A DNA stretch of 64,000 nucleotides from Novosphingobium sediminicola (GTDB lineage Bacteria > Pseudomonadota > Alphaproteobacteria > Sphingomonadales > Sphingomonadaceae), in contig NZ_JACIDX010000016.1 of assembly GCF_014196525.1 (NCBI RefSeq), forward strand, positions 1 through 64,000, read 5' to 3'. Of the stretch, positions 25,838 to 40,071 are shown one piece after another (the first letter of the stretch is position 1; every line of letters starts with the position of its first letter). The position numbers and the translations under genes are program-made. Under the pieces are notes generated by a model. It did not search any database. It saw nothing but the letters and a program-made list of their open reading frames with translations, and had not been told where the DNA came from.

Positions 25838-26641
25838 ATGATCCCCGCGCCCGAACCCTTGCCCTTTTCGCTCGACAGCGGGGGAAAAGTGTACGGGCGC
25901 GATGGATCGGTGGCCTATGCCGGGCGCCTGTGGGTGCCCGAGGCGCCGGTGGCGCTGGAATTCAATGGCCTTGCCTATGCGGTGATGATGGCCACCCCGT
26001 CCGATCTGATCGATTACGCCACCGGCTTTGCGCTGGCCGAGGGGCTGATTTCGGACGCCGCGCAGATGGGCGAGATCGGCGTGGCGCATCTCGACATCGG
26101 CTGGATTTTGCGGGCGCAGATCGACGGGTTGGACGCGGCGAAATTGTCCGAGCGCGTGCGGGCGCGGGTGGCGGAAAGCTCTTGCGGATTGTGCGGGATG
26201 GAGAATCTGGAGGTCGTGGCCCGGCCCCTGCCGCAGGTCGCGCCCCATGCCGCGATCACCCCGGAGGCTATATTCGAGGCGGGCGAGGAATTGCGCGAGC
26301 ATCAGGCGCTGGGCCGCGCCACATCGGCCGCCCATGCCGCCGCCTTTTGTGCGCCGGATGGCGCTATTCTTGCCTGTCGCGAGGATGTCGGGCGGCATAA
26401 TGCGGTGGACAAGCTGGTGGGCGCGGTGGCGCGGGCGGGTGTCTCGCTGGGCGATGGCTTCCTGTTTTCCACCGCGCGATGTTCGTATGAAATCGTTGAA
26501 AAGGCGGTCAAGGCCGGGGCGATGACTCTGGTGACCATTTCGCTGCCCACCTCTTTGGCGGTGGCGCGTGCGCGCGATGCGGGGCTCTCGCTATGGGTTC
26601 TGGCGCGGAACGATAGTGTGATTTGCGTCACCTCGCGATAG
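25838..26641 (+). CDS. fdhD: Formate dehydrogenase accessory sulfurtransferase
   Basis: FdhD transfers sulfur from a cysteine desulfurase to the molybdenum cofactor of formate dehydrogenase. It has 267 residues. The sulfur-carrying CGLCG lies at Cys116/Cys119, and the cofactor-binding region reads TSAAHAAAFCAPDGAILACREDVGRHNAVDKLVG. The start is 6 bases after the VOC stop. No formate dehydrogenase gene is in the window, so its client must be encoded elsewhere. Confidence 0.93.
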   Translation: MIPAPEPLPFSLDSGGKVYGRDGSVAYAGRLWVPEAPVALEFNGLAYAVMMATPSDLIDYATGFALAEGLISDAAQMGEIGVAHLDIGWILRAQIDGLDAAKLSERVRARVAESSCGLCGMENLEVVARPLPQVAPHAAITPEAIFEAGEELREHQALGRATSAAHAAAFCAPDGAILACREDVGRHNAVDKLVGAVARAGVSLGDGFLFSTARCSYEIVEKAVKAGAMTLVTISLPTSLAVARARDAGLSLWVLARNDSVICVTSR

Positions 26642-26716
26642 TTTGAGCGCTTATCCGGGTCAAAATCGGCGCGCTCTCTTGCGGTATGCCCATCCGATGG
26701 GGCAAGGGAATGGTCC

Positions 26717-27388
26717 ATGTGGCGCCTTTATCAATTTCCGCTCTGTCCTTTCTCCCGCAAGGTCCGTCTCGTCATGGGCGAGAAGGGGATTGCCTATGAG
26801 CTGTGGCGCGAAAATCCGTGGGACATGCGCGACGAGTTTCTGAACCTGAACCCGGCGGGGCGCACCCCGGTGCTTCAGGACCCGGAAAAAGGGCTGGCCC
26901 TGTCGGATAGCCGGGCGATCTGTGAATATCTGGAAGAAACCGTCGAGCGCAGCCCGCTGATCATTGGCACGGCGGCGGCGCGGGCGGAAATCCGTCGGCT
27001 TGTCGCGATGTTCGACGAGAAATTCTTTGCCGATGTCACCGGGCCTCTGTTGCAGGAACGGATGATGAAGCGGCTGGTGCTGCGCCAGTCTCCCGACTCG
27101 CGGGTGCTGCGCGAGGCGATGCGGCTGGCCCACGATCACCTCTATTACATCGATTATCTGGTCGATACGCGGCCATGGCTGGGCGGGGCGACACTGTCGC
27201 TGGCCGATCTGGCCGCGGCGGCGCAGATTTCGGTCTGCGACTATCTGGGCGGGCTGGACTGGAGCGGGCATGAGCAGGCCCGCACATGGTATTCGGTGTT
27301 CAAAAGCCGCCCCAGTTTCCGCCCCCTGCTGGCCGAACGGATGGAAGTGATCCAGCCGCCCAGCCATTATGCGGATCTCAATGCCTGA
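26717..27388 (+). CDS. Glutathione S-transferase family protein
   Basis: This protein has 223 residues: an N-terminal thioredoxin-like domain (residues 1-75) with PLCPFSRKVRLVMGEKGI, then NPAGRTPVLQDPEKGLALSDSRAICEYLEE, and a helical C-terminal domain containing LGGATLSLADLAAAAQISVCDYLGGLDW. The CPFS motif at the active-site position is like omega or beta-class enzymes. The substrate is unknown. It appears to be monocistronic. Confidence 0.9.
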   Translation: MWRLYQFPLCPFSRKVRLVMGEKGIAYELWRENPWDMRDEFLNLNPAGRTPVLQDPEKGLALSDSRAICEYLEETVERSPLIIGTAAARAEIRRLVAMFDEKFFADVTGPLLQERMMKRLVLRQSPDSRVLREAMRLAHDHLYYIDYLVDTRPWLGGATLSLADLAAAAQISVCDYLGGLDWSGHEQARTWYSVFKSRPSFRPLLAERMEVIQPPSHYADLNA

Positions 27389-27680
27389 TCGCTGATCGGG
27401 CCGGATCTGAGACAGGTCCGGGCGACAGCTCCGGGGCATCCTTATCTCTGAATGCTGCATAAAATCAGGCGACCGCTTTTCATTTGGCGGGGCGACGATT
27501 TGCGCCGCCTGATCCTGTGGCAGGAGGGCGGCCTGCCCAATTGCTTTGTTGCAAAGCCGAAACATACGGACTGGCCCTTATCCGGCGCGATTTTTGCCCG
27601 TCCGAGGCCGCATTTGTCTGATTTGCAGGTTTGTTTCTCAAGTATGCATCTATTGATATGGAATGCGCCATAAACAGCGT

Positions 27681-27697
27681 ATAAAATGGCATTTTAT
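27681..27697. promoter_or_regulatory. Perfect 17-base palindrome, candidate operator
   Basis: ATAAAATG-G-CATTTTAT is a perfect inverted repeat with a one-base centre, in the AT-rich region about 300 bases upstream of the TonB-dependent receptor start. Such a dyad is typical of dimeric repressor or activator binding. The regulator is unknown, and no regulator gene is adjacent. Confidence 0.5.
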
Positions 27698-27783
27698 TTC
27701 ATGTACTTGCAACTATCGGTCTTTGCGCCCGCTGCTTTGATGCAACAAATGTGACTGAATTGCAACATTGGCGCAATATTTAA

Positions 27784-27799
27784 CTGACAGAAGTGTCAG
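27784..27799. promoter_or_regulatory. Inverted repeat CTGACA/TGTCAG
   Basis: CTGACA-GAAG-TGTCAG is a perfect 6-bp inverted repeat with a 4-base spacer, about 190 bases upstream of the receptor start. It could be an operator or a transcript-end hairpin in the leader. Confidence 0.35.
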
Positions 27800-27987
27800 C
27801 TTCTTTACCCCGGCCCGCCACAGCGGCAAGACAGCGCCATTGCTCTGTCACCGTGCGGGGGCGCGCCATGCAAACTTCCGGGGCATCAGGAAGTCGGGCC
27901 TCAACGCTTGCCGAACGAACGGAGCTTTGTCCGGGCCAATCCTTGGCGGCTGGCCGCACGCGCAGCGCGCGTAACAAAGGGGTGAAC

Positions 27988-30900
27988 ATGAAAACGAACC
28001 TTGCAAACGCACTGAGGCATGGCGCCGCGCCGCTGGTGATGAGCATCGCGATGCTGGCCGGTCCCGCCTATGCCCAACAGGCTTCGATCGTCGATGGTCC
28101 GCCGCCGGCCCCCGCCGCGCCGGTCGACACTTCGGCCACCATCGTGGTGACGGGCACGCGCATCGTCAATCCGAACCTCAAGTCAGCCGCTCCGATCACC
28201 ACCGTGTCGGCGCTTGACCTGAAAGTGGCGGGCACGACCCGTACGGAAGACATCCTCAACCAGTTGCCGCAGGTCTTTGCCGCGCAATCCTCGACGCTGG
28301 CCAATGGCGCGAGCGGCACGGCCGAAGTCGACCTTCGCGGTCTTGGTCCCAAGCGCACGCTGGTGCTGATCAACGGCCGCCGCCTGATGGCGGGCGATCC
28401 CAGCCCGACCAGCAGCTCGGCGGCTGACCTTAACTTCATCCCCGCCTCGCTGATCAAGCGCGTCGACGTGCTGACCGGCGGCGCATCGGCCACCTATGGC
28501 GCAGACGCGGTGGCGGGCGTGGTCAACTTTGTCATGGACAAGGACCTCAACGGCCTGCGCATCGACGTCAACGATGGCCTGTATCAGCACAACAATGGCT
28601 CGACCATGGTGCAGGGCCTGCTGAACGCGCGAACGGCCGCGGGGCTGTCGGGTTTTGACTATCCCACGGGCAACACCTGGGGCGGCAACAATGTCGACGC
28701 CACGATTTCCTATGGCACCAAGTTTGCCGATGGCGCGGGCCATGTGATGGCCTATTTCGGCTATCGCCAGAGCAATGCGCTGCTTCAGTCCGCGCGCGAC
28801 TTTTCCAAGTGCACGGTCCAGAACGTGCCCGGCAGCGCTTCAAATCTGCGGTGCGGCGGTTCGTCGATCTCGGCAAATGGCAATGCGGTTTATTACGCCA
28901 ATGATGGCAAGGGCAATGTGTCCTCGACGGTCGGCACCCTGGGCAATGGTACGTTTGGCGGGGCCCCTACGCGCTACAACTTTGCCCCGCTCAATTACTT
29001 CCAGCGTCCTGACCAGCGCTATACCGCCGGTCTGTTCGCCGATTATGAAGTGAATTCGGCGCTGCATCCCTATCTTGAATTCATGTTCATGGACGATCAC
29101 ACCGTGGCCCAGATCGCCCCCTCGGGTGACTTTGGCAACACGCTGACGATCAACTGCGACAATCCGTTGATGAGCGCGGCGCAGCATAATGCGATCTGTA
29201 CGTCCGACAATATGGTCAACCACTATCTGGGCACGTTCCCGCTGGTGGATTCGGTCTATAACGGGCTGTCTCCTGCCACGCAGGCCCAGGCGACGCTGGC
29301 CCCCAACAATTACACGGCCTTCTTCCAGTTGCTGCGCCGCAACGTCGAAGGCGGCGCCCGTGTCAGCGATCTTCAGCATACCTCGTTCCGTACGGTGGTC
29401 GGCTCGAAGGGCGAACTGGGCCATGGCTGGGCTTATGACGCCTATTTCCAGTATGGGCGGACCAATTATAATCAGGTCTATTCGAACGAATTTTCGGCCC
29501 AGCGTCTGGGTTATGCGCTTGATGTCGTGACCGGCCCTTCGGGCACGCCGGTGTGCCGCATTTCGCTCACCTATCCTTCGTCGGGCTGCGTTCCCTATAA
29601 CATCTGGTCGGGATCGCCTTCGGCTGCCTCGCTGGCCTATCTCAATGCCACCGGATTCCAGAACGGCTATACCAGCCAGACGGTGATCTCCGGCACGCTG
29701 ACGGGCGACCTTGGCACCTATGGCCTGAAATCGCCGCTGGCCAGCGATGGCGTGAACATCGCGCTGGGCATCGAGCGCCGCACCGAAAAGCTGGTGCTCA
29801 ATACCGACAATGCGTTCCAGTCGGGCGATCTGACCGGCCAGGGCGCGCCGACCCTGCCGATCAACGGCGGCTATCACGTCACCGAGTTCCTTGGCGAAAT
29901 AGCGGTGCCGGTGATCGACCGGATGCTGACCTTCAACGGCGGTTTCCGTTATTCGGATTATGCGATCAACAACGGTAAGGGTTACAAGACCGGCACCTAC
30001 AAGCTGGAACTGGACTTTACGCCGATCGAGGATATCCGCATCCGCGCCAGCCTTAACCGCGCGGTGCGTGCGCCCAACATTCAGGAGCTGTTCCGCGCCA
30101 ACTATGTCGGCCTTGACGGCGTGACCGATCCTTGTGCCGGCACGGCGATTACCGCCGCCGACACGGGCTGTCTGGCCCAGGGCCTGCGTGTGGGGCAGAC
30201 TGTGGCTTCGAATCCGGCGGCGCAATATAACGGCTATCTGGGCGGCAATGCCAACCTGCGCCCGGAAAAGGCCACGACCAAGACCGTGGGCGTGGTCATC
30301 ACCCCGCATCAGGTGCCGGGCCTGTCGATGAGCGTCGATTATTTCGACATCAAGATCAATCAGGCCATTCAGGCCTATGGCGCCGACGCCATCCTGGGTG
30401 CGTGCAACTCGGGCAGCGCACTGGCCTGCGGTCTGATCAAGCGTAATGCGGCTGGTTCGCTGTGGCTGTCGCCCGATGGCTATGTCACCGATCTTGATAA
30501 CAATGTGGGCTGGGTGAAGACGGCCGGCTTTGAAGTCAATACAAGCTATTCAAAGAACCTTGGCGTCTGGGGCCGCCTTAACGCCAGCCTGACGGGTACG
30601 GCGTTGAGCGAAAAGTCCACCTATAATGGCTTGTCGCCGGCCTATGACTGCGCAGGCTATTATGGCAGCACCTGCGGGGTTCCGGCGCCCAACTGGCGCC
30701 ACAAGGCCCGCCTTACCTGGTCGACGCCCAAGAACATCGATGTGTCGCTGACCTGGCGCTATGTCGGTTCGGCCAAGGTCGAATATACGAACCCCTCGCC
30801 CACGCTCGCGGCAACGGACTACAGCACCTATAACGCGAAGCTTCCGGCCATGAGCTATTTCGACCTGTTCGTGACGGGCAAGGTGGGCAAAAACCTGTCG

Positions 30901-31077
30901 GTCCGTGCCGGTGTGAACAACATCTTTGACAAGGATCCGCCGCTGGTTTCCTCGGGCGCCTCGGACGGTTCCATTCTTAGCTCCTGCCAGTCGGTCTATT
31001 GCAATGGCAATACCTATCCGGGCGTGTATGACTCGCTGGGTCGCTATCTGTTCGTTGGCGCGACGGTCAACTTCTGA
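27988..31077 (+). CDS. TonB-dependent outer-membrane receptor
   Basis: This is a large TonB-dependent receptor of 1029 residues for import of a scarce substrate across the outer membrane. The signal peptide ends near Ala29 (GPAYA-Q), and a TonB box-like TIVVTGTR lies at 51-58. The plug domain follows (LNQLPQVFAAQSS, VDLRGLGPKRTLVLINGRRL, GASATYGADAVAGVVNFVM). The rest is the 22-strand beta-barrel, ending in the aromatic terminus GATVNF. The ATG at 27988 has AAAGGGG upstream. Size and plug sequence match the sphingomonad/Caulobacter receptor class often linked to peptides or plant-derived compounds. The downstream hydroxylase, sulfotransferase and peptidases favour a peptide, by inference. Confidence 0.95.
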   Translation: MKTNLANALRHGAAPLVMSIAMLAGPAYAQQASIVDGPPPAPAAPVDTSATIVVTGTRIVNPNLKSAAPITTVSALDLKVAGTTRTEDILNQLPQVFAAQSSTLANGASGTAEVDLRGLGPKRTLVLINGRRLMAGDPSPTSSSAADLNFIPASLIKRVDVLTGGASATYGADAVAGVVNFVMDKDLNGLRIDVNDGLYQHNNGSTMVQGLLNARTAAGLSGFDYPTGNTWGGNNVDATISYGTKFADGAGHVMAYFGYRQSNALLQSARDFSKCTVQNVPGSASNLRCGGSSISANGNAVYYANDGKGNVSSTVGTLGNGTFGGAPTRYNFAPLNYFQRPDQRYTAGLFADYEVNSALHPYLEFMFMDDHTVAQIAPSGDFGNTLTINCDNPLMSAAQHNAICTSDNMVNHYLGTFPLVDSVYNGLSPATQAQATLAPNNYTAFFQLLRRNVEGGARVSDLQHTSFRTVVGSKGELGHGWAYDAYFQYGRTNYNQVYSNEFSAQRLGYALDVVTGPSGTPVCRISLTYPSSGCVPYNIWSGSPSAASLAYLNATGFQNGYTSQTVISGTLTGDLGTYGLKSPLASDGVNIALGIERRTEKLVLNTDNAFQSGDLTGQGAPTLPINGGYHVTEFLGEIAVPVIDRMLTFNGGFRYSDYAINNGKGYKTGTYKLELDFTPIEDIRIRASLNRAVRAPNIQELFRANYVGLDGVTDPCAGTAITAADTGCLAQGLRVGQTVASNPAAQYNGYLGGNANLRPEKATTKTVGVVITPHQVPGLSMSVDYFDIKINQAIQAYGADAILGACNSGSALACGLIKRNAAGSLWLSPDGYVTDLDNNVGWVKTAGFEVNTSYSKNLGVWGRLNASLTGTALSEKSTYNGLSPAYDCAGYYGSTCGVPAPNWRHKARLTWSTPKNIDVSLTWRYVGSAKVEYTNPSPTLAATDYSTYNAKLPAMSYFDLFVTGKVGKNLSVRAGVNNIFDKDPPLVSSGASDGSILSSCQSVYCNGNTYPGVYDSLGRYLFVGATVNF

Positions 31078-31102
31078 CCCTTTGCGCATAATGTGATCGG
31101 CA

Positions 31103-31136
31103 GCGGCGGCTTCTCCCTCGGGAGGGGCCGCCGTTT
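31103..31136 (+). terminator. Hairpin after the TonB receptor gene
   Basis: GCGGCGGC and GCCGCCG with an inner stem CTCCC/GGGAG form an extended hairpin followed by GTTTGCTT, 26 bases after the receptor stop. It probably acts as a partial terminator or a stabilising 3' structure, allowing the receptor to be made in excess over the downstream genes. Confidence 0.6.
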
Positions 31137-31160
31137 GCTTATGATAGAAGGGGAATTTTC

Positions 31161-33191
31161 GTGAGCCTTGACGCTGGCGGGATGACACAGGCCGACGAGC
31201 AGGAGGCGATTGCGCAGATTGTCGCCCTTGCGCGCGGCAGGCGTATGGACGAGGCGGCGGTTGCGGTGCGCCGCGCGGCCGCGCGCGGGGCGGGCGGGCC
31301 GGTGTTTGCTGCGCTGGCCGGGGCGGTAGAGTTTCATCGCGGGCAATTTGCCGATGCCATCCCCCATCTGCGCTTTGCCCATAGCGCTCAGCCCGCCGAC
31401 AATACGGTTCGCGCCAATCTGGCCGAGGCGCTGTATCGCACCGGGGCCGGGGATGCGGCGCTGGCGCTGTGCGAAGAGGATGCGGCACGGGCGGACCGGT
31501 CCTTGCGCCTGGCGCGGATCGGCGGCCATCTGGCGCAGGAGGCGGGGGAATTCGCCCGCGCCGCCGCGCTTTACCGCATCGCTCTGGATGGCGATGCGCG
31601 GGATTGGTCGGGGTGGAACAATCTGGGCAATGCGCTTGGCGCGCTGGAGGATTGGGATGAGGCGGTGTCGGCGCTGCGCCGGGCGGCGGCGCTGGCGCCC
31701 GATTCCGCGCCGGTGCGGCTCAATCTGGGCAAGACGCTGATCGAGGCCGGGCGGGGCGAGGAAGGCGAGGCTTTGCTGCGCGCGCTGGTCCGCGAATTTC
31801 CGCAGGAGGCAGCCACACATTACGCGATGTTTGACGTGCTGCGCGGGGCGGGCGATGCCGATGGGGCGCATCAGGCGATTTCCACCGCGGCGCGTCTGGC
31901 CCCCGATGATGCGCAGATTCAGGCCGATTGGGGCCAGCATTGCGCCATGATGGGTCTGTTCGACGAGGTGGAGGCGCCGCTTCGCAAGGCTTTGGCGATC
32001 GACCCCTCGATTGCCCCGGCGTGGGTCGGCCTGGCCAGCCTGCTGGAACGATTGAACCGCGAGGATGAGATCGAGCCTTTGCGCGCCGAGGCGGTGGCCC
32101 ATGTCGATGCCGCCTCGCTCTCCTTCATCGATGCGCTGCGCCATAAACGCGCCCATCGCTATGACGAGGCGCTGGCCGCGCTGGAGGCGGCGGGCGAGCA
32201 AACGGTGACGGCGGGGCAGCGCCATCACTTGCGCGGGGTACTGCTCGACCGACTGGGGCGCTATGATGAGGCCTTTGCCAGTTTTGCTGCGATGAATGCC
32301 GAATTTGCCACCGACCCCACCGATCCGCGCGGGCGCGGGGCGCGCTATCGGGCGGAAATCGAGGCGGGCGCAGCTTTGCTGACCCCGGCATGGCGGGCGG
32401 GGTGGGGCGCGTTTACGCCCTCGCGCGCGCGGCCCGCGCCGATCTTCCTGCTGGGCTTTCCGCGTTCGGGCACAACGCTGCTCGACACGATGCTGATGGC
32501 CGAGCCGCGCGTGCGCGTGCTGGAGGAAGCGCCGATCATAGCCGAGATCGAGGCGCAATTGGGGGGCATCGCCGCCCTGCCGGGATTGAGCGCGGATCAG
32601 ATCAAGGAGGCCCGCGCGCTCTATTTCGCCCGTGCCGGTGAACTGGCCGATCTGGGCCCCGACAGCATCGTGCTGGACAAGCATCCGATGCATCTGCGCC
32701 ATGCGCCCACCATCGCTCGCCTGTTTCCCGAAAGCCGGTTTATCCTTGCCCTGCGCCACCCCTGCGATGTGGTGCTGTCCTGCTGGCTGACCAATTTCCG
32801 GCTGAACAATGCGATGGCCAGCTTCCTCGATCTGGAGGATGCTGCCGCGCTGTATGAAGCCGCCTTTGGCCAGTGGGAAAAGGCGCGGGCGCTGCTCGAT
32901 CTGCCCGTGGGCGAGGTGGTCTATGAACGCCTTGTCGAGGATAAAGACGCCGAATTGCGGCCCTTGTTCGACTGGCTGGGGCTGGATTGGCCCGATGGCG
33001 GGGTGGATCACCGCGAGGCCGCCCGCGCGCGCGGCACCGTCATCACCGCCAGCTATGCCCAGGTGACCGAGCCGATCTATCAGCGCGCCGCCGGGCGGTG
33101 GCGGCACTATCAGGCGCATCTGGCCCCGGTGGCCGCGCGCCTTGCGGGCTGGATCGAACGTTTTGGCTATGGTGAGGGGCCGCAGGCATGA
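31161..33191 (+). CDS. TPR-repeat sulfotransferase family protein
   Basis: This is a two-part protein of 676 residues. Residues about 15-410 are tandem tetratricopeptide repeats (for example GWNNLGNALGALEDWDEAVSALRRAAALAP). Residues 425-676 are a PAPS-dependent sulfotransferase domain: the 5'-phosphosulfate loop is GFPRSGTT at 432-439, and ALRHPCDVVLSCW supplies the 3'-phosphate site. The predicted start is GTG at 31161, with GAAGGGGAA upstream. The TPR array probably selects a protein or peptide acceptor. It overlaps the following hydroxylase gene by four bases. No signal peptide is present, so it acts in the cytoplasm. Confidence 0.9.
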   Translation: MSLDAGGMTQADEQEAIAQIVALARGRRMDEAAVAVRRAAARGAGGPVFAALAGAVEFHRGQFADAIPHLRFAHSAQPADNTVRANLAEALYRTGAGDAALALCEEDAARADRSLRLARIGGHLAQEAGEFARAAALYRIALDGDARDWSGWNNLGNALGALEDWDEAVSALRRAAALAPDSAPVRLNLGKTLIEAGRGEEGEALLRALVREFPQEAATHYAMFDVLRGAGDADGAHQAISTAARLAPDDAQIQADWGQHCAMMGLFDEVEAPLRKALAIDPSIAPAWVGLASLLERLNREDEIEPLRAEAVAHVDAASLSFIDALRHKRAHRYDEALAALEAAGEQTVTAGQRHHLRGVLLDRLGRYDEAFASFAAMNAEFATDPTDPRGRGARYRAEIEAGAALLTPAWRAGWGAFTPSRARPAPIFLLGFPRSGTTLLDTMLMAEPRVRVLEEAPIIAEIEAQLGGIAALPGLSADQIKEARALYFARAGELADLGPDSIVLDKHPMHLRHAPTIARLFPESRFILALRHPCDVVLSCWLTNFRLNNAMASFLDLEDAAALYEAAFGQWEKARALLDLPVGEVVYERLVEDKDAELRPLFDWLGLDWPDGGVDHREAARARGTVITASYAQVTEPIYQRAAGRWRHYQAHLAPVAARLAGWIERFGYGEGPQA

Positions 33192-34315
33192 GCGCTGTCG
33201 AGGCCATGGTTCGCGCGGGCGATCTGGCCGGGGCGGCGGAGCAGTTGGAGCAGGCGTTAGGCGAGGAGCCAAGCCTGACGCGCTATCTGCAACTGGCGGG
33301 CCTGCGCCGCGCTTTGCGCCAACCGCACCGGGCCCTGCGCGCGGTGGAGGCGGGACTGGCGCTGGCGCCGCTTGATTTTATGGCATTATGTATGCGCGCC
33401 GGATTGCTGGAGGGCATCGGCGATCCCGGCGTGGGCCGCGCGTGGGACGAGGCGCTGGCGCAAAGGCCGGAGGGCGATCTGCCGCCGCCGCTGCTGGCCG
33501 CGATGGCCCATGGCGAAGCGTTGCGCGATCAATGGCGCGCCGCGCGCGCCGCGCAGATGGCGCAGGCCACGCAGGCCAGCGAAGCGGTGGGGGGCGATGA
33601 GGCATGGCGCATCGCCCGTTTCCGCAGCAACACCTTGCGCCAGACCCGTCCCTATTATTCCGAGCCGACCCATTTCTTCTATCCCGGCCTGAGCATGCGC
33701 GAATATCACCCGGCCGAGCGCTTCCCATGGCTGGCTGATCTTGCCGCCGCGACCGAGGCGATCCGCGACGAGATGCTGGCCGTGATGCGTTCTGACCGCG
33801 CCGAACTGGCCCCCTATATCCAATATGCCGAGCATCAGGCGCTGCGCCAGTGGCAGCCGTTGAACCACAATCCCGACTGGACCGCGATCCACCTGATCCG
33901 CCGGGGCGAGATGGTTTCGGCCAATGCCGCGCAATGTCCGGTCACGATGGAATTGCTCTCGCGCATGCCCCAGCCCGATATTCCGGGCGCTTCGGCCAAT
34001 GCGCTGTTTTCCCTGTTGGCGCCCCATACGGCGATCCCGCCTCATGTGGGGGTCAATAATGCGCGGCTGCTGTGCCATGTGCCGCTGGTGGTGCCCGATG
34101 GCTGCTGGTTCCGGGTGGGGGCCGAAACGCGGATGTGGCGCGAGGGAGAGCCTTTCGTGTTCGACGATACGATCGAGCATGAGGCAATGAACCCGAGCGA
34201 CCATCTGCGCGTGGTGATGATTTTCGACATCTGGCACCCGGATCTGACGCCGGGGGAACGCGACGCCGTGCGCGCCATCGTGGCGCAGGAAACGGCTGCC
34301 GGAAATCTGGGTTAA
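33188..34315 (+). CDS. TPR-containing aspartyl/asparaginyl beta-hydroxylase family protein
   Basis: This protein of 375 residues has an N-terminal short TPR-like helical region (1-130) and a C-terminal AspH-type Fe(II)/2-oxoglutarate oxygenase domain (about 170-355). Likely metal ligands are His286 (AIPPHVGVNN) and His331 (DDTIEHEAMN), with Arg341 for 2-oxoglutarate; AspH enzymes typically use two histidines. Translation is coupled to the sulfotransferase by a four-base overlap, so both probably modify the same target. The target is not identifiable from sequence. Confidence 0.9.
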   Translation: MSAVEAMVRAGDLAGAAEQLEQALGEEPSLTRYLQLAGLRRALRQPHRALRAVEAGLALAPLDFMALCMRAGLLEGIGDPGVGRAWDEALAQRPEGDLPPPLLAAMAHGEALRDQWRAARAAQMAQATQASEAVGGDEAWRIARFRSNTLRQTRPYYSEPTHFFYPGLSMREYHPAERFPWLADLAAATEAIRDEMLAVMRSDRAELAPYIQYAEHQALRQWQPLNHNPDWTAIHLIRRGEMVSANAAQCPVTMELLSRMPQPDIPGASANALFSLLAPHTAIPPHVGVNNARLLCHVPLVVPDGCWFRVGAETRMWREGEPFVFDDTIEHEAMNPSDHLRVVMIFDIWHPDLTPGERDAVRAIVAQETAAGNLG

Positions 34316-34330
34316 ACAAGGAGCAGTTTG

Positions 34331-36433
34331 ATGAAGCATCGTTTGATGGTGATGGCGGCGTCTTTGGCGATGATTCCCGCGGCATCGGGGGCGCAGACGG
34401 TGTTTGATGCGCCTTCGCCTTTGCCGTTCCACGCGCCCGATTTTTCGCGCATCAAGGACGCTGATTTCCAGCCCGCCATCGAACGCGGCATCGCGCTGCA
34501 ACGGGCCGAGATCGATGCCATTGCCGCCAATCCTGCCGCCCCGACCTTTGCCAACACCATCGAGGCGATGGAGCGTGCGGGCCAGATGCTCGACCGTGTG
34601 AATCAGGTGTTTTCCGCGCTGACCAGCGCCAACACCAATGACACGCTGGACGGGGTGGACCGGGTCACGGCGCCCAAGCTGGCGGCGCTCAATGATGAAG
34701 TGTCGCTCAATGCGAAGCTCTTCGCCCGCATCAAGGTGCTGCATGAGAAGGCGGCCAGCCTTAAGCTCTCGCCCGTCCAGCGTCGCCTGCTCGACCGCAC
34801 CTATGAGAGCTTTACCCATAGCGGCGCGCTGCTGGACGAGGCGGGCAAGACCCAGCTGAAAGCGATCAACCAGCGCCTTGCCAGCCTGTCGACCGAATTT
34901 TCGCAGCAATTGACCGCAGGCACGCGTGATGCTGCGCTGGTGGTGAAGGATAAGGCGGCGCTGGCGGGCCTGTCGGAGGGCGAGATTGCGGCGGCGGCCA
35001 AGGCGGCCGAGGGCAAGAAGCTGCCCGCGGGCACCTATGTGCTGCCCTTGCAGAACACGACGCAGCAGCCGCAACTGGAAAGCCTGTCCGATTCCGCGAC
35101 GCGCAAGGCCTTGTTCGAGGCGAGCTGGACCCGCAGCGAGCGCGGCGATGCCCATGACACGCGCGCGATGATCACCGAAATGGCGCAGTTGCGCGCCGAA
35201 AAGGCCAAGCTGCTGGGCTACAAGAATTTTTCCGACTATCAGCTCTATGACCAGATGGCCAAGAACGGCGCCAACGCCCGCGCCTTCATGGCCAAGCTGG
35301 CCCCCGCGCTGAAGGCCGCGCAGGAGCGGCAGGTCAAGGAACTGGCGGCGCTGATCGCCAAGGACGGGGGCGACACCAGCGTCAAGCCGTGGGACTGGCA
35401 GAAATACGCCGGGCAAAGCCTGAAGGCCAAGCTCTCCTTCGATCCCGCCTCGGCCAAGCCCTATTTCGAGATCAACAAGGTGATGGAGGATGGCGTTTTC
35501 TACGCCGCCAACCAGCTTTACGGCATCAGCTTCAAACGCCGCACCGATCTGCCCGTCTATCAGGAAGATGTGCGCACCTACACCGTCTATGACAAGGGCG
35601 GCAAGGAGCTGGGCCTGTTCTATTGGGACCCGTGGAAGCGGGACAACAAGCAGGGCGGCGCATGGATGAGCAATTTCGTCGGCCAGTCAGGGATGATGGG
35701 CACCAAACCGGTCATCTATAATGTCGAAAATTTCGCCAAACCGGCGGCAGGAGAGCCGCTGCTGGTCAGTTTCGACGATGTGATCACCATGTTCCACGAA
35801 TTTGGCCATGCGCTGCACGGCCTGTTCTCGGACCAGTATTACCCCAGCATGTCGGGCGCCAACACCGCGCGCGATTTCGTCGAATTCCCCAGCCAGTTCA
35901 ATGAGAACTGGGCCACCGATCCCAAGGTTCTGGCCCATTATGCACGCCATTATCAGACCGGCGCGCCCATGCCCCCGGCCATGGTGGAAAAATTGAAAGA
36001 CCTGCGCCGCATCGATCAGGGCTATGATCTGGGCGAGGTGGTGGCCGCCGCGATGCTGGATATGGACTGGCACGCGCTGTCTGCCGATGCGCCGCGTCAG
36101 GATGTCGATGCGTTCGAGGCCAAGGCGCTGGCCGCCACGGGGCTGGACACCGCCCATGTCCCGCCGCGCTATCGTTCCAGCTATTTCCGCCACATCTGGG
36201 CCAATGGTTATGCCAGCGCCTATTACGCCTATCTGTGGACCCAGATGCTCGACCATGACGCCTATGACTGGTTCGTCCACCATGGCGGCCTGAGCCGCGC
36301 CAATGGCGAGCGTTTCCGCGCATTGGTGCTCTCGCGCGGGTCGTCGCTGGATTATGCGGCCATGTACAAAGGCTTCACCGGGCGCGATCCCTCGGTCACG
36401 CCGATGCTGCGCGCCAAGGGCCTGATCGACTGA
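34331..36433 (+). CDS. M3 family metallopeptidase (peptidyl-dipeptidase Dcp-like), exported
   Basis: This is a zinc oligopeptidase of 700 residues with a signal peptide (MVMAASLAMIPAASGAQ). The HEFGH zinc motif is at 489-493, followed by the family's ALHGLFSDQYYPSMSGANTARDFVEFPSQ. The C-terminal YRSSYFRHIWANGYASAYYAYLWTQMLDHD is also typical. It should release dipeptides or cut short peptides in the periplasm. AAGGAG precedes the ATG at 34331. It is 15 bases after the hydroxylase gene, consistent with one transcript. Confidence 0.93.
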   Translation: MKHRLMVMAASLAMIPAASGAQTVFDAPSPLPFHAPDFSRIKDADFQPAIERGIALQRAEIDAIAANPAAPTFANTIEAMERAGQMLDRVNQVFSALTSANTNDTLDGVDRVTAPKLAALNDEVSLNAKLFARIKVLHEKAASLKLSPVQRRLLDRTYESFTHSGALLDEAGKTQLKAINQRLASLSTEFSQQLTAGTRDAALVVKDKAALAGLSEGEIAAAAKAAEGKKLPAGTYVLPLQNTTQQPQLESLSDSATRKALFEASWTRSERGDAHDTRAMITEMAQLRAEKAKLLGYKNFSDYQLYDQMAKNGANARAFMAKLAPALKAAQERQVKELAALIAKDGGDTSVKPWDWQKYAGQSLKAKLSFDPASAKPYFEINKVMEDGVFYAANQLYGISFKRRTDLPVYQEDVRTYTVYDKGGKELGLFYWDPWKRDNKQGGAWMSNFVGQSGMMGTKPVIYNVENFAKPAAGEPLLVSFDDVITMFHEFGHALHGLFSDQYYPSMSGANTARDFVEFPSQFNENWATDPKVLAHYARHYQTGAPMPPAMVEKLKDLRRIDQGYDLGEVVAAAMLDMDWHALSADAPRQDVDAFEAKALAATGLDTAHVPPRYRSSYFRHIWANGYASAYYAYLWTQMLDHDAYDWFVHHGGLSRANGERFRALVLSRGSSLDYAAMYKGFTGRDPSVTPMLRAKGLID

Positions 36434-36460
36434 AATTCCCCCTATCAGAAGGTTTGAGAC

Positions 36461-38104
36461 ATGAAATATTCGCCCTTGCTGGCCGCTTTTCTGCTGGGCG
36501 CGGCTGCGCCTGCCTTGGCGGCGTCTCCTGCGATCAAGGTGCCGCCGATTGACGTGGCGCTGATGAAAGACACGGTCAAAACCCTCTCGGCCGATGATAT
36601 GGAAGGGCGTGGCCCCTCCACCGCCGTTGAGCCGAAAGTTTTGGATGCGATCATTGCGCGTTTCAAGGCAGCCGGGCTGAAGCCCGGCGGCGAAAAGGGC
36701 GGGTGGCTGCAAACCGTGCCCACCGTCGAAATGACCATGGCGCAAAGCAGCCCGCTGACCATCGGCGGCGTCGGCTTTGTCCGGGGCAGCGATTTTGTCG
36801 CCACCAGTTTCCGCCATGTGCCCCATACCGAGATCAAGGACAGCGATCTGGTCTTTGTCGGCTATGGCATCAACGCGCCCGAATTGGGGTGGAACGATTA
36901 TGCCGGGGTGGACATGCACGGCAAGGTGGCCGTGATCCTGATCAACGATCCCGATTATGCCGCCAAGGACGAGGTGGGCCTCTTCAAGGGCCGCCGCATG
37001 ACCTATTACGGGCGCTGGACCTATAAATACGAAGAGGCGGCCCGGCAGGGCGCGCGCGCGGCGCTGATCGTGCATGACACCTATCCCGCCGCCTATGGCT
37101 GGAATGTGGTGCAGTCGAGCTGGTCGGGCTCGGAATATTATGTGGCGCGGCCCGACAATGCGATGGACCAGACCGAGGCCAATGGCTGGATCCAGATGGG
37201 CGTGGCGAAAAAGGTCTTTGCCGCGGCGGGCAAGGATTTCGCGGCACTGTCCGAGGCGGCCAAGCAGAAGGGCTTTAAGGCCGTGCCGCTGGGGCTGAAG
37301 GCCAGCCTGTCGTTTGACAGCACGCTGCGCCGGGCCGAATCGCACAATGTCGTGGGGCTTCAAAAGGGGCGGGTGAAGCCCGATGAGGTGGTGCTCTATT
37401 CGGCGCACTGGGATCATCTTGGGCACTGCGAAAAGGATGCCAAGGGCGATGGCATCTGTAACGGCGCGGTGGATAATGCGACCGGTGTGGGCGCGCTGGT
37501 GGCGCTGGCCAAGGCCAATGTGAAGGCTGGCCCCGCTCGGCGCAGTCAGGTGTTTGTCGCGCTCACGCTGGAGGAATCGGGCCTGCTGGGCAGCGAATTC
37601 TATGGCCAGAACCCGCTCTATCCGCTGGCCAAAACGGTGGGTGGGGTGAATATGGACGCGCTGGCCCCGATCGGCCGCGCGCGCAATTACGCCATCACCG
37701 GGGGCGACAAATCCGACCTCACCGGCATTTTCCGCGCCGTGCTGAAGCAGGAAGGCCTGTATGAAAGCCCCGAGGACCATTCCGAACGCGGCCACTACTA
37801 CCGCTCGGACCACTTCAGCCTCGCCAAGCGCGGCGTGCCCATGTTCGACATCGCGCGCGGGCAGGACCTGTTTGCAGGCGGCGCCAAGGCGGGCGCATTG
37901 GCCACCGAGGATTATGTCGAGCACCGCTATCACCAGCCGTCGGACGAATATTCGGATAGCTGGGACTGGTCGGGCATCACGCAGGACGTGAAGGTCTTTT
38001 ATAAGTTGGGGCGGATTCTGGCTGATGGGGCGATGTGGCCCAACTGGCACAAGAGTGATGAGTTTCGCGGGATTCGCGATGCGAGTTTGAAAAGCGGGAA
38101 GTAG
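36461..38104 (+). CDS. M28 family peptidase with PA domain, exported
   Basis: This aminopeptidase-type zinc enzyme has 547 residues. The signal peptide ends near residue 20 (PALAAS). A PA insertion domain occupies about residues 100-260. The co-catalytic zinc site shows SAHWDHLG (His316), GAVDNATG (Asp338), TLEESG (Glu371/Glu372) and RSDHFSLAKRGVP. It lies 27 bases after the M3 gene. With the M3 peptidase it would hydrolyse imported peptides to amino acids in the periplasm. A repeat element begins two bases after its stop. Confidence 0.92.
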   Translation: MKYSPLLAAFLLGAAAPALAASPAIKVPPIDVALMKDTVKTLSADDMEGRGPSTAVEPKVLDAIIARFKAAGLKPGGEKGGWLQTVPTVEMTMAQSSPLTIGGVGFVRGSDFVATSFRHVPHTEIKDSDLVFVGYGINAPELGWNDYAGVDMHGKVAVILINDPDYAAKDEVGLFKGRRMTYYGRWTYKYEEAARQGARAALIVHDTYPAAYGWNVVQSSWSGSEYYVARPDNAMDQTEANGWIQMGVAKKVFAAAGKDFAALSEAAKQKGFKAVPLGLKASLSFDSTLRRAESHNVVGLQKGRVKPDEVVLYSAHWDHLGHCEKDAKGDGICNGAVDNATGVGALVALAKANVKAGPARRSQVFVALTLEESGLLGSEFYGQNPLYPLAKTVGGVNMDALAPIGRARNYAITGGDKSDLTGIFRAVLKQEGLYESPEDHSERGHYYRSDHFSLAKRGVPMFDIARGQDLFAGGAKAGALATEDYVEHRYHQPSDEYSDSWDWSGITQDVKVFYKLGRILADGAMWPNWHKSDEFRGIRDASLKSGK

Positions 38105-38106
38105 GG

Positions 38107-38332
38107 GCCTCCGGCGGGCAAAGGGACTCGGTCCCTTTGCAATCCCGGTAATGGGGTTGGGGAAGGTTGGCCACGGGGTGTTTGGGGCTGGTGTTTAAGG
38201 CCTGCGGCGCTGCAAAGGCATCGCTGTCCGCGCCGCAGGCTTTATTCCTGAAACGCTGCGTCCGACACCCCTTGGCCGAACCCATGGTGCGACAAAGACA
38301 TTAATGGGAGCGCGAGGGTTTAGACCCTCGCA
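38107..38332 (+). repeat. Modular intergenic repeat, copy 4 (full, A-to-D orientation)
   Basis: Full-length copy: the A block (GCCTCCGGCGGGCAAAGGG, CCCTTTGCAATCCCGG, TAATGGGG), the B hairpin between GCCTGCGGCGC (38200) and GCGCCGCAGGC (38230), the C block (CGTCCGACACCCCTTGGCCG) and the D block ending in CGAGGGTTTAGACCCTCG. It fills the space between the converging M28 peptidase and rpmB genes. Confidence 0.9.
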
Positions 38333-38361
38333 TCTTCAACTTTCCTTCAAATCTCAGACAC

Positions 38362-38399
38362 GAAAAAGCCCGGCGGAGAATCCCCCACCGGGCTTTTTC
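38362..38399. terminator. Terminator between converging genes, serves rpmB
   Basis: GAAAAAGCCCGG and CCGGGCTTTTTC form a 12-bp stem with A-run and T-run flanks, giving an intrinsic terminator in both directions. It lies 24 bases past the rpmB stop codon. Confidence 0.85.
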
Positions 38400-38422
38400 A
38401 CATCAACCCCAAAGGGGAAGAA

Positions 38423-38713
38423 TCAGGCGGCGACAGCGGCCTTCTTGGCCAGCTCGCGCTTCACCTTGACGGCGCGCGGGCTGAGCTTGTCGTCGGCGCT
38501 CTTGAGCAGCCAGTTGTCGAGGCCGCCCACGTGTTCCACCGAGCGGAGGCCGTGGGTCGAGACGCGGAACTTGAAGCTGCGGTCAAGACCTTCCGACAGA
38601 AGCGTGACGTTCTGCAGGTTGGGCAGGAACACGCGCTTGGTCTTGTTGTTGGCGTGGCTGACGTTGTGGCCGACCTGGCGGCCTTTGCCAGTCAGTTCGC
38701 AAATACGGGACAT
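38423..38713 (-). CDS. rpmB: 50S ribosomal protein L28
   Basis: This large-subunit ribosomal protein has 96 residues. The sequence [27 protein letters not shown] followed by [10 protein letters not shown] is standard for alphaproteobacterial L28. It lacks the CxxC pairs of the zinc-binding form. It is a single gene with its own terminator, divergent from tadA. Confidence 0.97.
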
Positions 38714-38839
38714 GGGTGCTACTCGCTTAAGAAAGAATCCGATGACCCGCATAAAAGGCGGGTGAGGGGGCGCGCATAACGATTCGTGTGGAAAAGGTCA
38801 AGTTGCCTTGGACCTTTCGCTGCGCTAGCCCTTGCCTTT

Positions 38840-39295
38840 ATGACGCGATGGCCACTTCCCGCCCCCATGCGCCGGGCTTTTGACGAGGCGCGGGCGGCTG
38901 CGGGCGCCGGAGAAGTGCCGATTGGCGCGGTGGTCGTCAAGGATGGCGTGATTATTTCATCCGCGCATAACCTGCCGCGCACCCGATGCGACCCCACCGC
39001 CCATGCCGAGGTGCTGGCGATTCGCGAGGCGGCGCGGGCGCTGGGCAACGAACGACTCGATGGCTGCGACTTGTGGGTCTCTCTGGAGCCCTGCGCGATG
39101 TGTGCGGGTGCGATCGTCCATGCCCGCATCGGCCGGCTCTATTATGCCGCCGCCGACCCCAAGGGCGGCGCTGTGGCGCATGGCGGGCGGATCTTTGACC
39201 AACCCACCTGTCTGCACCGCCCCGAGGTCTATTCCGGGATGGGCGAGGATGAGGCGGCCCAGATGCTGCGGGATTTTTTTGCAGCCCGCCGTTAA
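38840..39295 (+). CDS. tadA: tRNA-specific adenosine-34 deaminase
   Basis: This enzyme deaminates the wobble adenosine of tRNA-Arg(ACG) to inosine. It has 151 residues of the cytidine-deaminase fold. Zinc and catalytic motifs are TAHAEVLAIREA (His55, Glu57) and SLEPCAMCAGAI (Cys85, Cys88), with GRIFDQP and EVYSGM at the C-terminus. An ATG at 38867 is an alternative start. Its last four bases overlap the convergent RNase T2 gene. Confidence 0.93.
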   Translation: MTRWPLPAPMRRAFDEARAAAGAGEVPIGAVVVKDGVIISSAHNLPRTRCDPTAHAEVLAIREAARALGNERLDGCDLWVSLEPCAMCAGAIVHARIGRLYYAAADPKGGAVAHGGRIFDQPTCLHRPEVYSGMGEDEAAQMLRDFFAARR

Positions 39296-40071
39296 GCGGG
39301 TTTGCGCAGCGTCGGGATGATGAACAGGTCGCTGCTCGACGGCGCGGGGCAGGCCTTGGGCACAAAGCTGCCCTTCTCGATATCTTTGGGCTCAAAGCAC
39401 AGATGGACCTGCTTCAGCCACACTTTGCCCGAGCCGTCGGCGGCTGGCATGGTCTGGACCTGAATGGCCTTTTCATGGTCCTTGAACATCGGGTTGGCGT
39501 CCACAAAGGCATGGACCACCGCGTCCGACACCATCCGCCCGTCCTTGGCCAGCTTGTAGAGGTCGGGCTTTTTCAGCTTGGCATAAAGCCGCGCCACGCT
39601 CTGCCAATAGGCGCCGCCGCTGGTCCAAGGGCCGCAGGCGCCGTGCTTTTTCCACTCATGCATCTGCGTTGCGGCCGAGGGCATGATGCAAAGATGCTTC
39701 TGCAATTGCGGCAAAGTGGGCGCGGGGGCCTTGGTCGCGCACCATTGCGGCCAGCTGGTCCCATCCGTTTCGCCCCAGAGGCCATGGACGACGAGGCCGA
39801 AGGGCGGCTTGTCCTGACCGCATTGCAGCTTGTCGCCCGGATCTTTCAGCGGCCCTTTCAGACCGGCGCAATAGGACGGGGTCCAGCTCATCACGAAGCT
39901 GTAGACATTGATGGGATGCTTCGCCACCGGCTTGACCGGTTCGGCAGCGGGGCGCGAGATCTTGGGCAAGGCGTCCACCTGGGCTGCAACGCATTGCTGC
40001 GCCATGGCCTGTGCTGGGATCAGGGCTGCGGGGATCAGCGAAAGGGCAAGCGTGGTCAGGATCAGACGCAT
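39292..40071 (-). CDS. RNase T2 family ribonuclease, exported
   Basis: This endoribonuclease of 259 residues has a signal peptide ending near residue 25 (AQAMAQ). Both catalytic segments are present: FGLVVHGLWGETDG (CAS-1, active His) and HEWKKHGACG (CAS-2, active His/Glu). Six or more cysteines suggest disulfides. It probably degrades RNA non-specifically in the periplasm for nutrient recovery. Its ATG directly follows the nadC stop (TAAATG), so the two are coupled. Confidence 0.92.
   Translation of the reverse strand: MRLILTTLALSLIPAALIPAQAMAQQCVAAQVDALPKISRPAAEPVKPVAKHPINVYSFVMSWTPSYCAGLKGPLKDPGDKLQCGQDKPPFGLVVHGLWGETDGTSWPQWCATKAPAPTLPQLQKHLCIMPSAATQMHEWKKHGACGPWTSGGAYWQSVARLYAKLKKPDLYKLAKDGRMVSDAVVHAFVDANPMFKDHEKAIQVQTMPAADGSGKVWLKQVHLCFEPKDIEKGSFVPKACPAPSSSDLFIIPTLRKPA

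Follow-up and report, generated by a model that had tools for sequence, protein, structure and literature searches.

We analysed the first 64,000 nucleotides of contig NZ_JACIDX010000016.1 of Novosphingobium sediminicola (the window; its contig, C16, has 127,756 bases in a genome of 5.37 Mb). They carry five consecutive genes for a TonB-dependent receptor, a sulfotransferase with tetratricopeptide repeats (TPR), a TPR-bearing AspH-like 2-oxoglutarate (2OG) hydroxylase and two peptidases (Table 1). A preliminary description had read all five as one locus for peptide uptake and processing. Checks of open reading frames (ORFs) and Pfam families found every gene where it had placed it, and its spacing figures proved right within one base: 83 bases after the receptor gene, 4 bases shared by the sulfotransferase and hydroxylase genes, then 15 and 27 bases. 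Comparison with relatives indicates that the receptor and the enzymes very probably form a conserved functional module, and that the peptidases are probably bystanders.

Table 1. Genes and hairpin of the receptor-enzyme locus, in window positions.
Feature	Position	Strand	Evidence or remark
TonB-dependent receptor, 1029 amino acids	27988..31077	+	Pfam Plug 1.1e-21, barrel 9.5e-28
Terminator-like hairpin (31103-31134) with T-rich tail	31103..31142	+	between receptor and enzyme genes
TPR-sulfotransferase, 676 amino acids, GTG start	31161..33191	+	PF13469 4.4e-32 and TPR families
TPR-AspH-like 2OG hydroxylase, 375 amino acids	33188..34315	+	PF05118 2.7e-43
M3 (Dcp-like) peptidase	34331..36433	+	PF01432 2.8e-126; adjacent, probably outside the module
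M28 peptidase	36461..38104	+	PF04389 2.4e-35; adjacent, probably outside the module

Relatives were searched for in the window's own family (Sphingomonadaceae), where 76 of 149 genomes gave a hydroxylase match (E<=0.001, a count that takes in weak and partial ones). A first set of 40 loci was picked for holding the hydroxylase, and their genes were clustered and laid out; the genes were called by a simple script, with rough starts and some genes missed. A common chromosomal order was purD-xseA-M23 peptidase-c3-receptor-enzymes-clpB, in which c3 is a small exported protein and the names purD, xseA and clpB (like rpmB and tadA below) are our reading of the sequences. The enzymes found there were the TPR-sulfotransferase, a TPR-2OG oxygenase (PF13759) and further sulfotransferase-like proteins without a Pfam match, judged similar from a P-loop visible by eye. 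The window's genome has its receptor, sulfotransferase and hydroxylase away from clpB, with no receptor in the clpB neighbourhood.

A second set comprised 80 named loci, the best 80 of at least 584 relatives found with a query built mostly from receptor-linked hydroxylases. In 64 of these 80 loci, which came from alpha-, beta- and gammaproteobacteria, a clade-like receptor (tblastn, at least 350 bits) and the hydroxylase were no more than 6 kb apart; in 10 of the 16 loci missing it the contig ends less than 5 kb away on one side. At the same distance from the hydroxylase, 46 loci had the TPR-sulfotransferase, 45 the TPR-2OG oxygenase and 34 c3. The receptor, sulfotransferase and hydroxylase genes hold up as a conserved unit, and their exact order receptor-sulfotransferase-hydroxylase on one strand occurred in 20 of the 80. 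By class, as read from record titles, the receptor was linked in 35/41 Sphingomonadales, 4/7 Caulobacterales-type, 1/3 Rhodospirillales-type and 0/2 other alphaproteobacterial loci, in 10/12 gammaproteobacteria, in 11/11 betaproteobacteria and in 3/4 of uncertain class. One match, from Niveispirillum, was among plasmid records, in a record without annotation. At least three of the named loci (L152, L176, L177) repeat loci that other genomes of the analysis had already supplied, and the 147 loci used below are accordingly not all distinct.

Linkage was also counted from the receptor side, in 80 genomes that we chose from the 149 to include hydroxylase-positive and hydroxylase-negative ones (84 had been intended, of which four were left out). 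A profile of the receptor clade (A4), which was built mostly from hydroxylase-linked receptors and favours those, matched 67 of the 80 at E<=1e-200. The 67 clade-receptor loci derive from 66 of these 67 genomes, with G110 left out and G084 counted twice. Within 6 kb, a 2OG oxygenase was present in 53 and a sulfotransferase-like gene in 34 (the TPR-sulfotransferase in 19), 15 of the 34 resting only on STlike4, a family without a Pfam or NCBIfam match and with a P-loop seen by eye. At least one such enzyme was linked in 60 of the 67 loci, in 58 when the by-eye family is left out, and in 59 if, for G081, the slightly higher-scoring receptor copy on C22 (no enzyme nearby) replaces the C8 copy that we used. 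Another 2OG oxygenase was found in 25 of the 39 loci that have no hydroxylase. None of 27 other receptors of the window's genome, taken as a control, had linked enzymes; 15 of these have 6 kb of flank on both sides and 12 have less on one side. The difference (60/67 versus 0/27) gave a Fisher p of 2e-17, where this and the following p-values treat related genomes as independent. The hydroxylase was present in 33 of 38 genomes with a strong clade receptor versus 16 of 42 others (Fisher 8.5e-6), and in 46 of 67 with any clade receptor versus 3 of 13 without (Fisher 0.004). The counts for the 67 loci, the control and the 80 named loci rest on tblastn, with the two-Cys protein described below found by pattern.

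In a tree built by a quick method, the receptor clade (32 rows, SH-aLRT support 99) contained no other receptor of the window's genome that was included. The hydroxylase tree had 28 of 43 rows receptor-linked, in several patches, and the window's hydroxylase subclade of 8 rows was receptor-linked throughout. The corresponding receptor subclade of 9 consisted of the genomes of that hydroxylase subclade plus G111. The two trees disagreed on the nearest relative of the window (L039 or L040) and otherwise agreed well.

Several individual loci deserve separate mention. In Gammaproteobacteria L181, L187 and L200, the receptor-hydroxylase pair follows shortly after genes read by eye as ribosomal protein genes and rpoA, and in L181 and L200 a c3-like protein comes after the hydroxylase. 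In Paucibacter (L191:242-7758 and L205:5595-12173) the pair is followed by TonB and ExbB, with two ExbD in L191, all identified by eye. Tandem extra 2OG oxygenases, assigned by clustering to the 2OG-FeII_Oxy_4 type, stand beside the hydroxylase in L071:7283-10638 and L047:7962-10680, and L071 also has a pair of the 2OG-FeII_Oxy_5 type. In G020 (L070:12085) the clade receptor is part of a 2604-amino-acid open frame, for which the genome search saw a frame of 4173 codons; the explanation may be a giant fusion or an artefact of assembly or reading frame.

The hydroxylase is the only PF05118 match in the window's genome (150.5 bits, cut-off 22.6). Its structure model was of high confidence (pLDDT 95.1), with human AspH as the best full-length fold match (residues 1-366, VIA Z about 21-22), and a profile of the hydroxylase family found AspH in the PDB at 3.4e-47. 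H286, H331 and R341 align with H679, H725 and R735 of human AspH (residue numbers taken from structure entry titles), and the two Fe-binding histidines, H286 and H331, were invariant in sets of 21 and 43 sequences. The TPR region that had been proposed for this protein was not recovered by Pfam at E<=0.001. It is backed by the family profile, which matched TPR proteins, and by the model, which is helical over residues 3-149, a stretch that matches TPR structures. The window enzyme thus shares with human AspH the domain order of TPR and oxygenase, the Fe ligands and the equivalent of R735; it differs in being bacterial, in having no signal or membrane anchor discernible by eye, in carrying a leucine in place of R688 and in adjoining a TonB receptor and a sulfotransferase. 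It is a candidate Asp/Asn hydroxylase of a protein.

The sulfotransferase matched PF13469 (Sulfotransfer_3) over the full profile. The nearest solved relatives of its catalytic domain were protein-tyrosine sulfotransferases 2 (human TPST2, E about 1e-13), and its sequence contains PRSGTT and RHPxDVxxS, which we take to be the motifs of the loops that bind 3'-phosphoadenosine 5'-phosphosulfate (PAPS). An APS kinase, which would supply PAPS, is encoded in the same genome. Human TPST2 is a Golgi enzyme, unlike the window enzyme, which also has a TPR arm fused in front. The protein appears TPST-like by sequence, with tyrosine specificity as a candidate property. No N-terminal signal was seen by eye in either enzyme, and both are presumably cytoplasmic. 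For both, the nearest solved relatives are protein-modifying enzymes, which makes a shared protein client plausible; to that extent the earlier suggestion of one common substrate stands.

The receptor model (pLDDT 83.9) had PfeA, FepA and BtuB as the nearest solved folds. Among the 50 Foldseek matches listed were generic siderophore, cobalamin, haem and transferrin receptors, which gave no clue to the ligand, and the TonB-Xanth-Caul model TIGR01782 scored 24.4 bits under a cut-off of 310. Near-invariant residues specific to the clade include N1008 with P1011, N336 and the pair C888-C896; in the receptor model, the N1008/P1011 loop is placed outside the cell. The only receptor columns that tracked the hydroxylase at p<1e-6 were two prolines. 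Tracking columns were also seen for the TPR-2OG and sulfotransferase-like families, where they may simply follow subclades, and none was seen for the TPR-sulfotransferase.

The 83 bases between receptor and sulfotransferase genes (31078-31160) fold into a long G+C-rich hairpin (-44.6 kcal/mol, z -4.8). Our own scan of the named loci found a hairpin with a T tail at 53 of 54 receptor-enzyme junctions versus 50 of 417 other same-strand junctions, and at least five T in six at 48 of 54 versus 11 of 417. The window's own T run is interrupted (4 of 6), which makes read-through likely. A consensus scan over 27300-38800 did not list the 31103 hairpin; it returned 12 terminator sites versus 10.3 expected, near chance, and found nothing promoter-like in front of either the receptor or the sulfotransferase. 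The conserved terminator-like hairpin after the receptor, which the preliminary description had not noted, makes the earlier picture of a single transcript doubtful. The likeliest meaning of the hairpin is that much receptor and little enzyme is made. Terminators after strongly expressed receptor genes are ordinary, and the hairpin thus does not prove an enzyme-client relation.

Relatives carry two small exported proteins, c3 and a two-Cys protein with the pattern C-x(15-16)-C-x-T-x2-[EQ]-W. Neither was found in the window's genome. The profile used for c3 finds it in 8 of 10 genomes, 7 of them outside the profile set; for the two-Cys protein there was only a partial match, on C28, which was rejected as it lies inside a longer gene in another frame. 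G111, of the same genus, has the receptor, the sulfotransferase, the TPR-2OG oxygenase, the two-Cys protein and c3 beside the M23 peptidase and xseA genes, and gave no hydroxylase match. A DPN-like motif that precedes the first Cys in some copies of the two-Cys protein is found both near the module and far from it, and is not diagnostic. In L085, L086 and L087, two-Cys copies stand between genes for about 242-270 and 229-250 amino acids, with no module genes nearby.

We tentatively interpret the locus as a receptor-dedicated protein-modification module, a view that we hold with somewhat less than even confidence. A presumably cytoplasmic TPR-bearing AspH-like 2OG/Fe(II) hydroxylase and a TPST-like PAPS sulfotransferase are encoded beside the receptor, and relatives have the TPR-2OG oxygenase or other 2OG oxygenases and further sulfotransferase-like proteins. 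According to this proposal, the TPR arms would bind one of the system's own exported proteins, either before it is exported or while this happens, and the enzymes would hydroxylate and sulfate single side chains of it. The cytoplasmic cofactors, the TPR arms and the protein-acting solved kin of both enzymes favour such an exported-protein client, and the client is rather likely to be a protein or peptide of this system. Across the loci the enzymes are exchanged for one another and the receptor is the component that varies least, which makes it the favoured client before export. That the receptor is itself modified, presumably in its loops, is possible, somewhat less than an even chance; its small exported partners are the other candidates. 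The mark might modulate ligand binding or protect the receptor against phages and bacteriocins, and the receptor would not depend on it for its existence. The full picture, in which cytosolic TPR-guided enzymes decorate receptor side chains before export with a set that differs between lineages, perhaps for ligand choice or for evasion of phages and bacteriocins, is more doubtful still, roughly one chance in three by our estimate. We infer the cytoplasmic location of the enzymes, the protein client, the receptor in that role, the residues modified and the purpose.

Several observations weigh against this interpretation. A cytosolic enzyme would need to reach a Sec-exported receptor before it leaves. 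At p<1e-6, no receptor column of Asp or Asn tracks the hydroxylase, and the clade-invariant residues stay invariant in four receptors without hydroxylase. In the hydroxylase, L295 corresponds to R688 of human AspH, so the active-site pocket differs. Seven of the 67 clade-receptor loci have no enzyme nearby, and in G001 and G095 the hydroxylase and the two-Cys protein lie away from the receptor, in G001 together with a sulfotransferase-like gene. Finally, modifying enzymes also adjoin three further receptors in the window's genome that lie outside the clade or were not placed relative to it; these receptors were found from the enzyme side and are absent from the 27-receptor control. Two of these, at L106:5770-10480 and L108:9520-14130, are closely related receptors of another type, each beside a TPR-sulfotransferase. 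The third, at L303:9903-15437 (G000 C15:92402-97936), has as neighbours a tryptophan halogenase (PF04820 3.5e-195) and a TPR-2OG oxygenase belonging to the family that the module relatives carry. The association is hence not exclusive to the clade, and receptor-linked modifying enzymes appear to be a wider theme, of which this receptor clade is the most regular case seen in the analysis.

Two alternatives are serious rivals, each unlikely and to the same degree in our estimate. The first is that a small exported protein (two-Cys or c3) is hydroxylated and sulfated, exported and then recognised by or docked on the receptor. The two-Cys protein occurs in 26 and c3 in 42 of the 67 clade-receptor loci. 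In a search of 36 genomes, 22 of 50 two-Cys matches lay within 4 kb of module genes (positions compared by hand), a proportion that was 8 of 36 among matches outside the profile set, and in L052 and L053, whose receptor is elsewhere, this protein accompanies the hydroxylase. Against it, the window's genome keeps the receptor and both enzymes, in an operon with no room for a precursor gene, while neither small protein was detected there, which weakens these proteins as obligatory clients. The two-Cys protein moreover has no invariant Asp, Asn, Tyr or Pro, and its copies far from the module look alike.

The second is that the enzymes tailor a peptide product, ribosomal or other, that is made elsewhere, and the receptor takes it or a related one back. 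TonB receptors often import peptide products. Inspection of the window operon and its flanks revealed no precursor-like ORF, and clustering of the 40 loci no precursor-like constant partner, though with only ORFs of at least 60 amino acids called a short precursor could escape. The closest case for this alternative comes from Pontixanthobacter and Allopontixanthobacter, where, in the part of PMC10040529 available to us, lasso peptide B2, two sulfotransferases and an aspartyl beta-hydroxylase appear as near-consecutive clusters. As in the window, these are sphingomonads with both enzyme families, apparently in one neighbourhood (adjacency is deduced from cluster numbers); the lasso peptide enzymes are a difference.

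It is less probable again that the enzymes modify an imported nutrient or ligand in the cytoplasm, to begin its breakdown or detoxification. Both PAPS and 2-oxoglutarate are found in the cytoplasm, and uptake loci with receptor-linked enzymes commonly follow such a logic. However, no inner-membrane transporter or catabolic gene was seen as a constant neighbour among the neighbours identified, and the solved kin of the enzymes act on proteins, with TPR arms in both and in a third, the TPR-2OG oxygenase.

The peptidases found little place in the module. The M3 peptidase had Dcp as its best NCBIfam model (833 bits, under the 944 cut-off), and export of both peptidases was judged by eye from their N-termini. 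Among the 147 other loci (E<=1e-10) an M3 relative occurred in 1 and M28 relatives in 6 (26-31% identical), none of them in the operon, and none of the M3 relatives found in 20 of 30 genomes had an M28 match in roughly 1.5 kb of flank. An M3 gene (39%) stands about 2 kb from the receptor in L239, on the other strand. In G081 a relative is beside the second clade-receptor copy (L256), on the opposite strand and with no modifying enzyme; in G091 one is beside a 29% receptor match; and in G111 the relative (65% identical) is about 0.8 Mb from the receptor. On these counts the peptidases were rejected as module members, and with them the earlier picture of peptide uptake plus degradation loses its basis. 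The preliminary description had expected the enzyme pair to keep company with receptors and peptidases alike: receptors stay with it, and peptidases do not. That all five genes form one peptide-uptake and processing operon is accordingly very improbable. The short gaps after the hydroxylase would allow co-transcription of the peptidases in this genome; the terminator-like hairpin after the receptor, the 147 loci and the M3 genes that no M28 gene follows speak against the five-gene reading. Lipid modification of the kind performed by LpxO or OlsC, two enzymes with the same Asp/Arg hydroxylase domain, is next to excluded, since the weak NCBIfam matches (OlsC 76 bits, cut-off 450; LpxO 58 bits, cut-off 500) are far below threshold and the hydroxylase has a TPR arm and a full-length AspH-like architecture.

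The surroundings of the locus were also inspected. Upstream lies a gene of glutathione S-transferase fold, with FzlA as the closest model below its cut-off (252.8 versus 300 bits). Downstream follow a small minus-strand ORF, rpmB by eye, and a gene with deaminase families in Pfam, taken for tadA by eye. A ribonuclease T2 family gene (Pfam 6.7e-12) adjoins the deaminase gene on the minus strand at 39292-40071. No RNA family reached the Rfam gathering level over 26600-38800. A PADLOC scan of the five proteins gave no clear match to anti-phage defence, with only two weak ones (PrimPol, E 1e-4, for the sulfotransferase, and a 2OG domain, 3e-4), and a reading as a defence system was dropped for want of support.

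Among known systems, RaxST of Xanthomonas is a bacterial sulfotransferase that sulfates the exported peptide RaxX on tyrosine, and so shares with our proposal a bacterial sulfotransferase with an exported client. Receptor loci with a flavin halogenase, as in L303, likewise place modifying enzymes, including the TPR-2OG oxygenase family, next to a TonB receptor; there the halogenase replaces the hydroxylase and the sulfotransferase. For the characterised halogenase BrvH, the portion seen of PMC5945002 reports that the natural substrate was not identified and does not mention TonB, nor does TonB occur in the available sections of two further halogenase papers (PMC7336383, PMC8269204). In a review of sphingomonad TonB systems (PMC7142613), the main text, as far as accessible, contains no occurrence of sulfotransferase, hydroxylase or oxygenase. 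Full-text literature searches, whose coverage leaves out most subscription journals, returned no description of the module and no account of its function. The families themselves are known; the widely conserved receptor-sulfotransferase-hydroxylase module is a candidate for an undescribed system, as the preliminary description had proposed for the locus.

Beta-hydroxylation of Asp/Asn in proteins and sulfation of tyrosine are familiar chiefly from the secretory proteins of eukaryotes. Here, enzymes of that eukaryotic-type architecture are found beside one receptor clade in three proteobacterial classes, and the loci supply a short list of candidate clients. If modification of the receptor were shown, the system would be categorically new; otherwise it would be kin of receptor loci with accessory enzymes. 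Should the receptor be the client, bacteria would chemically edit their outer-membrane gates, with consequences for nutrient uptake, phage resistance and bacteriocin sensitivity.

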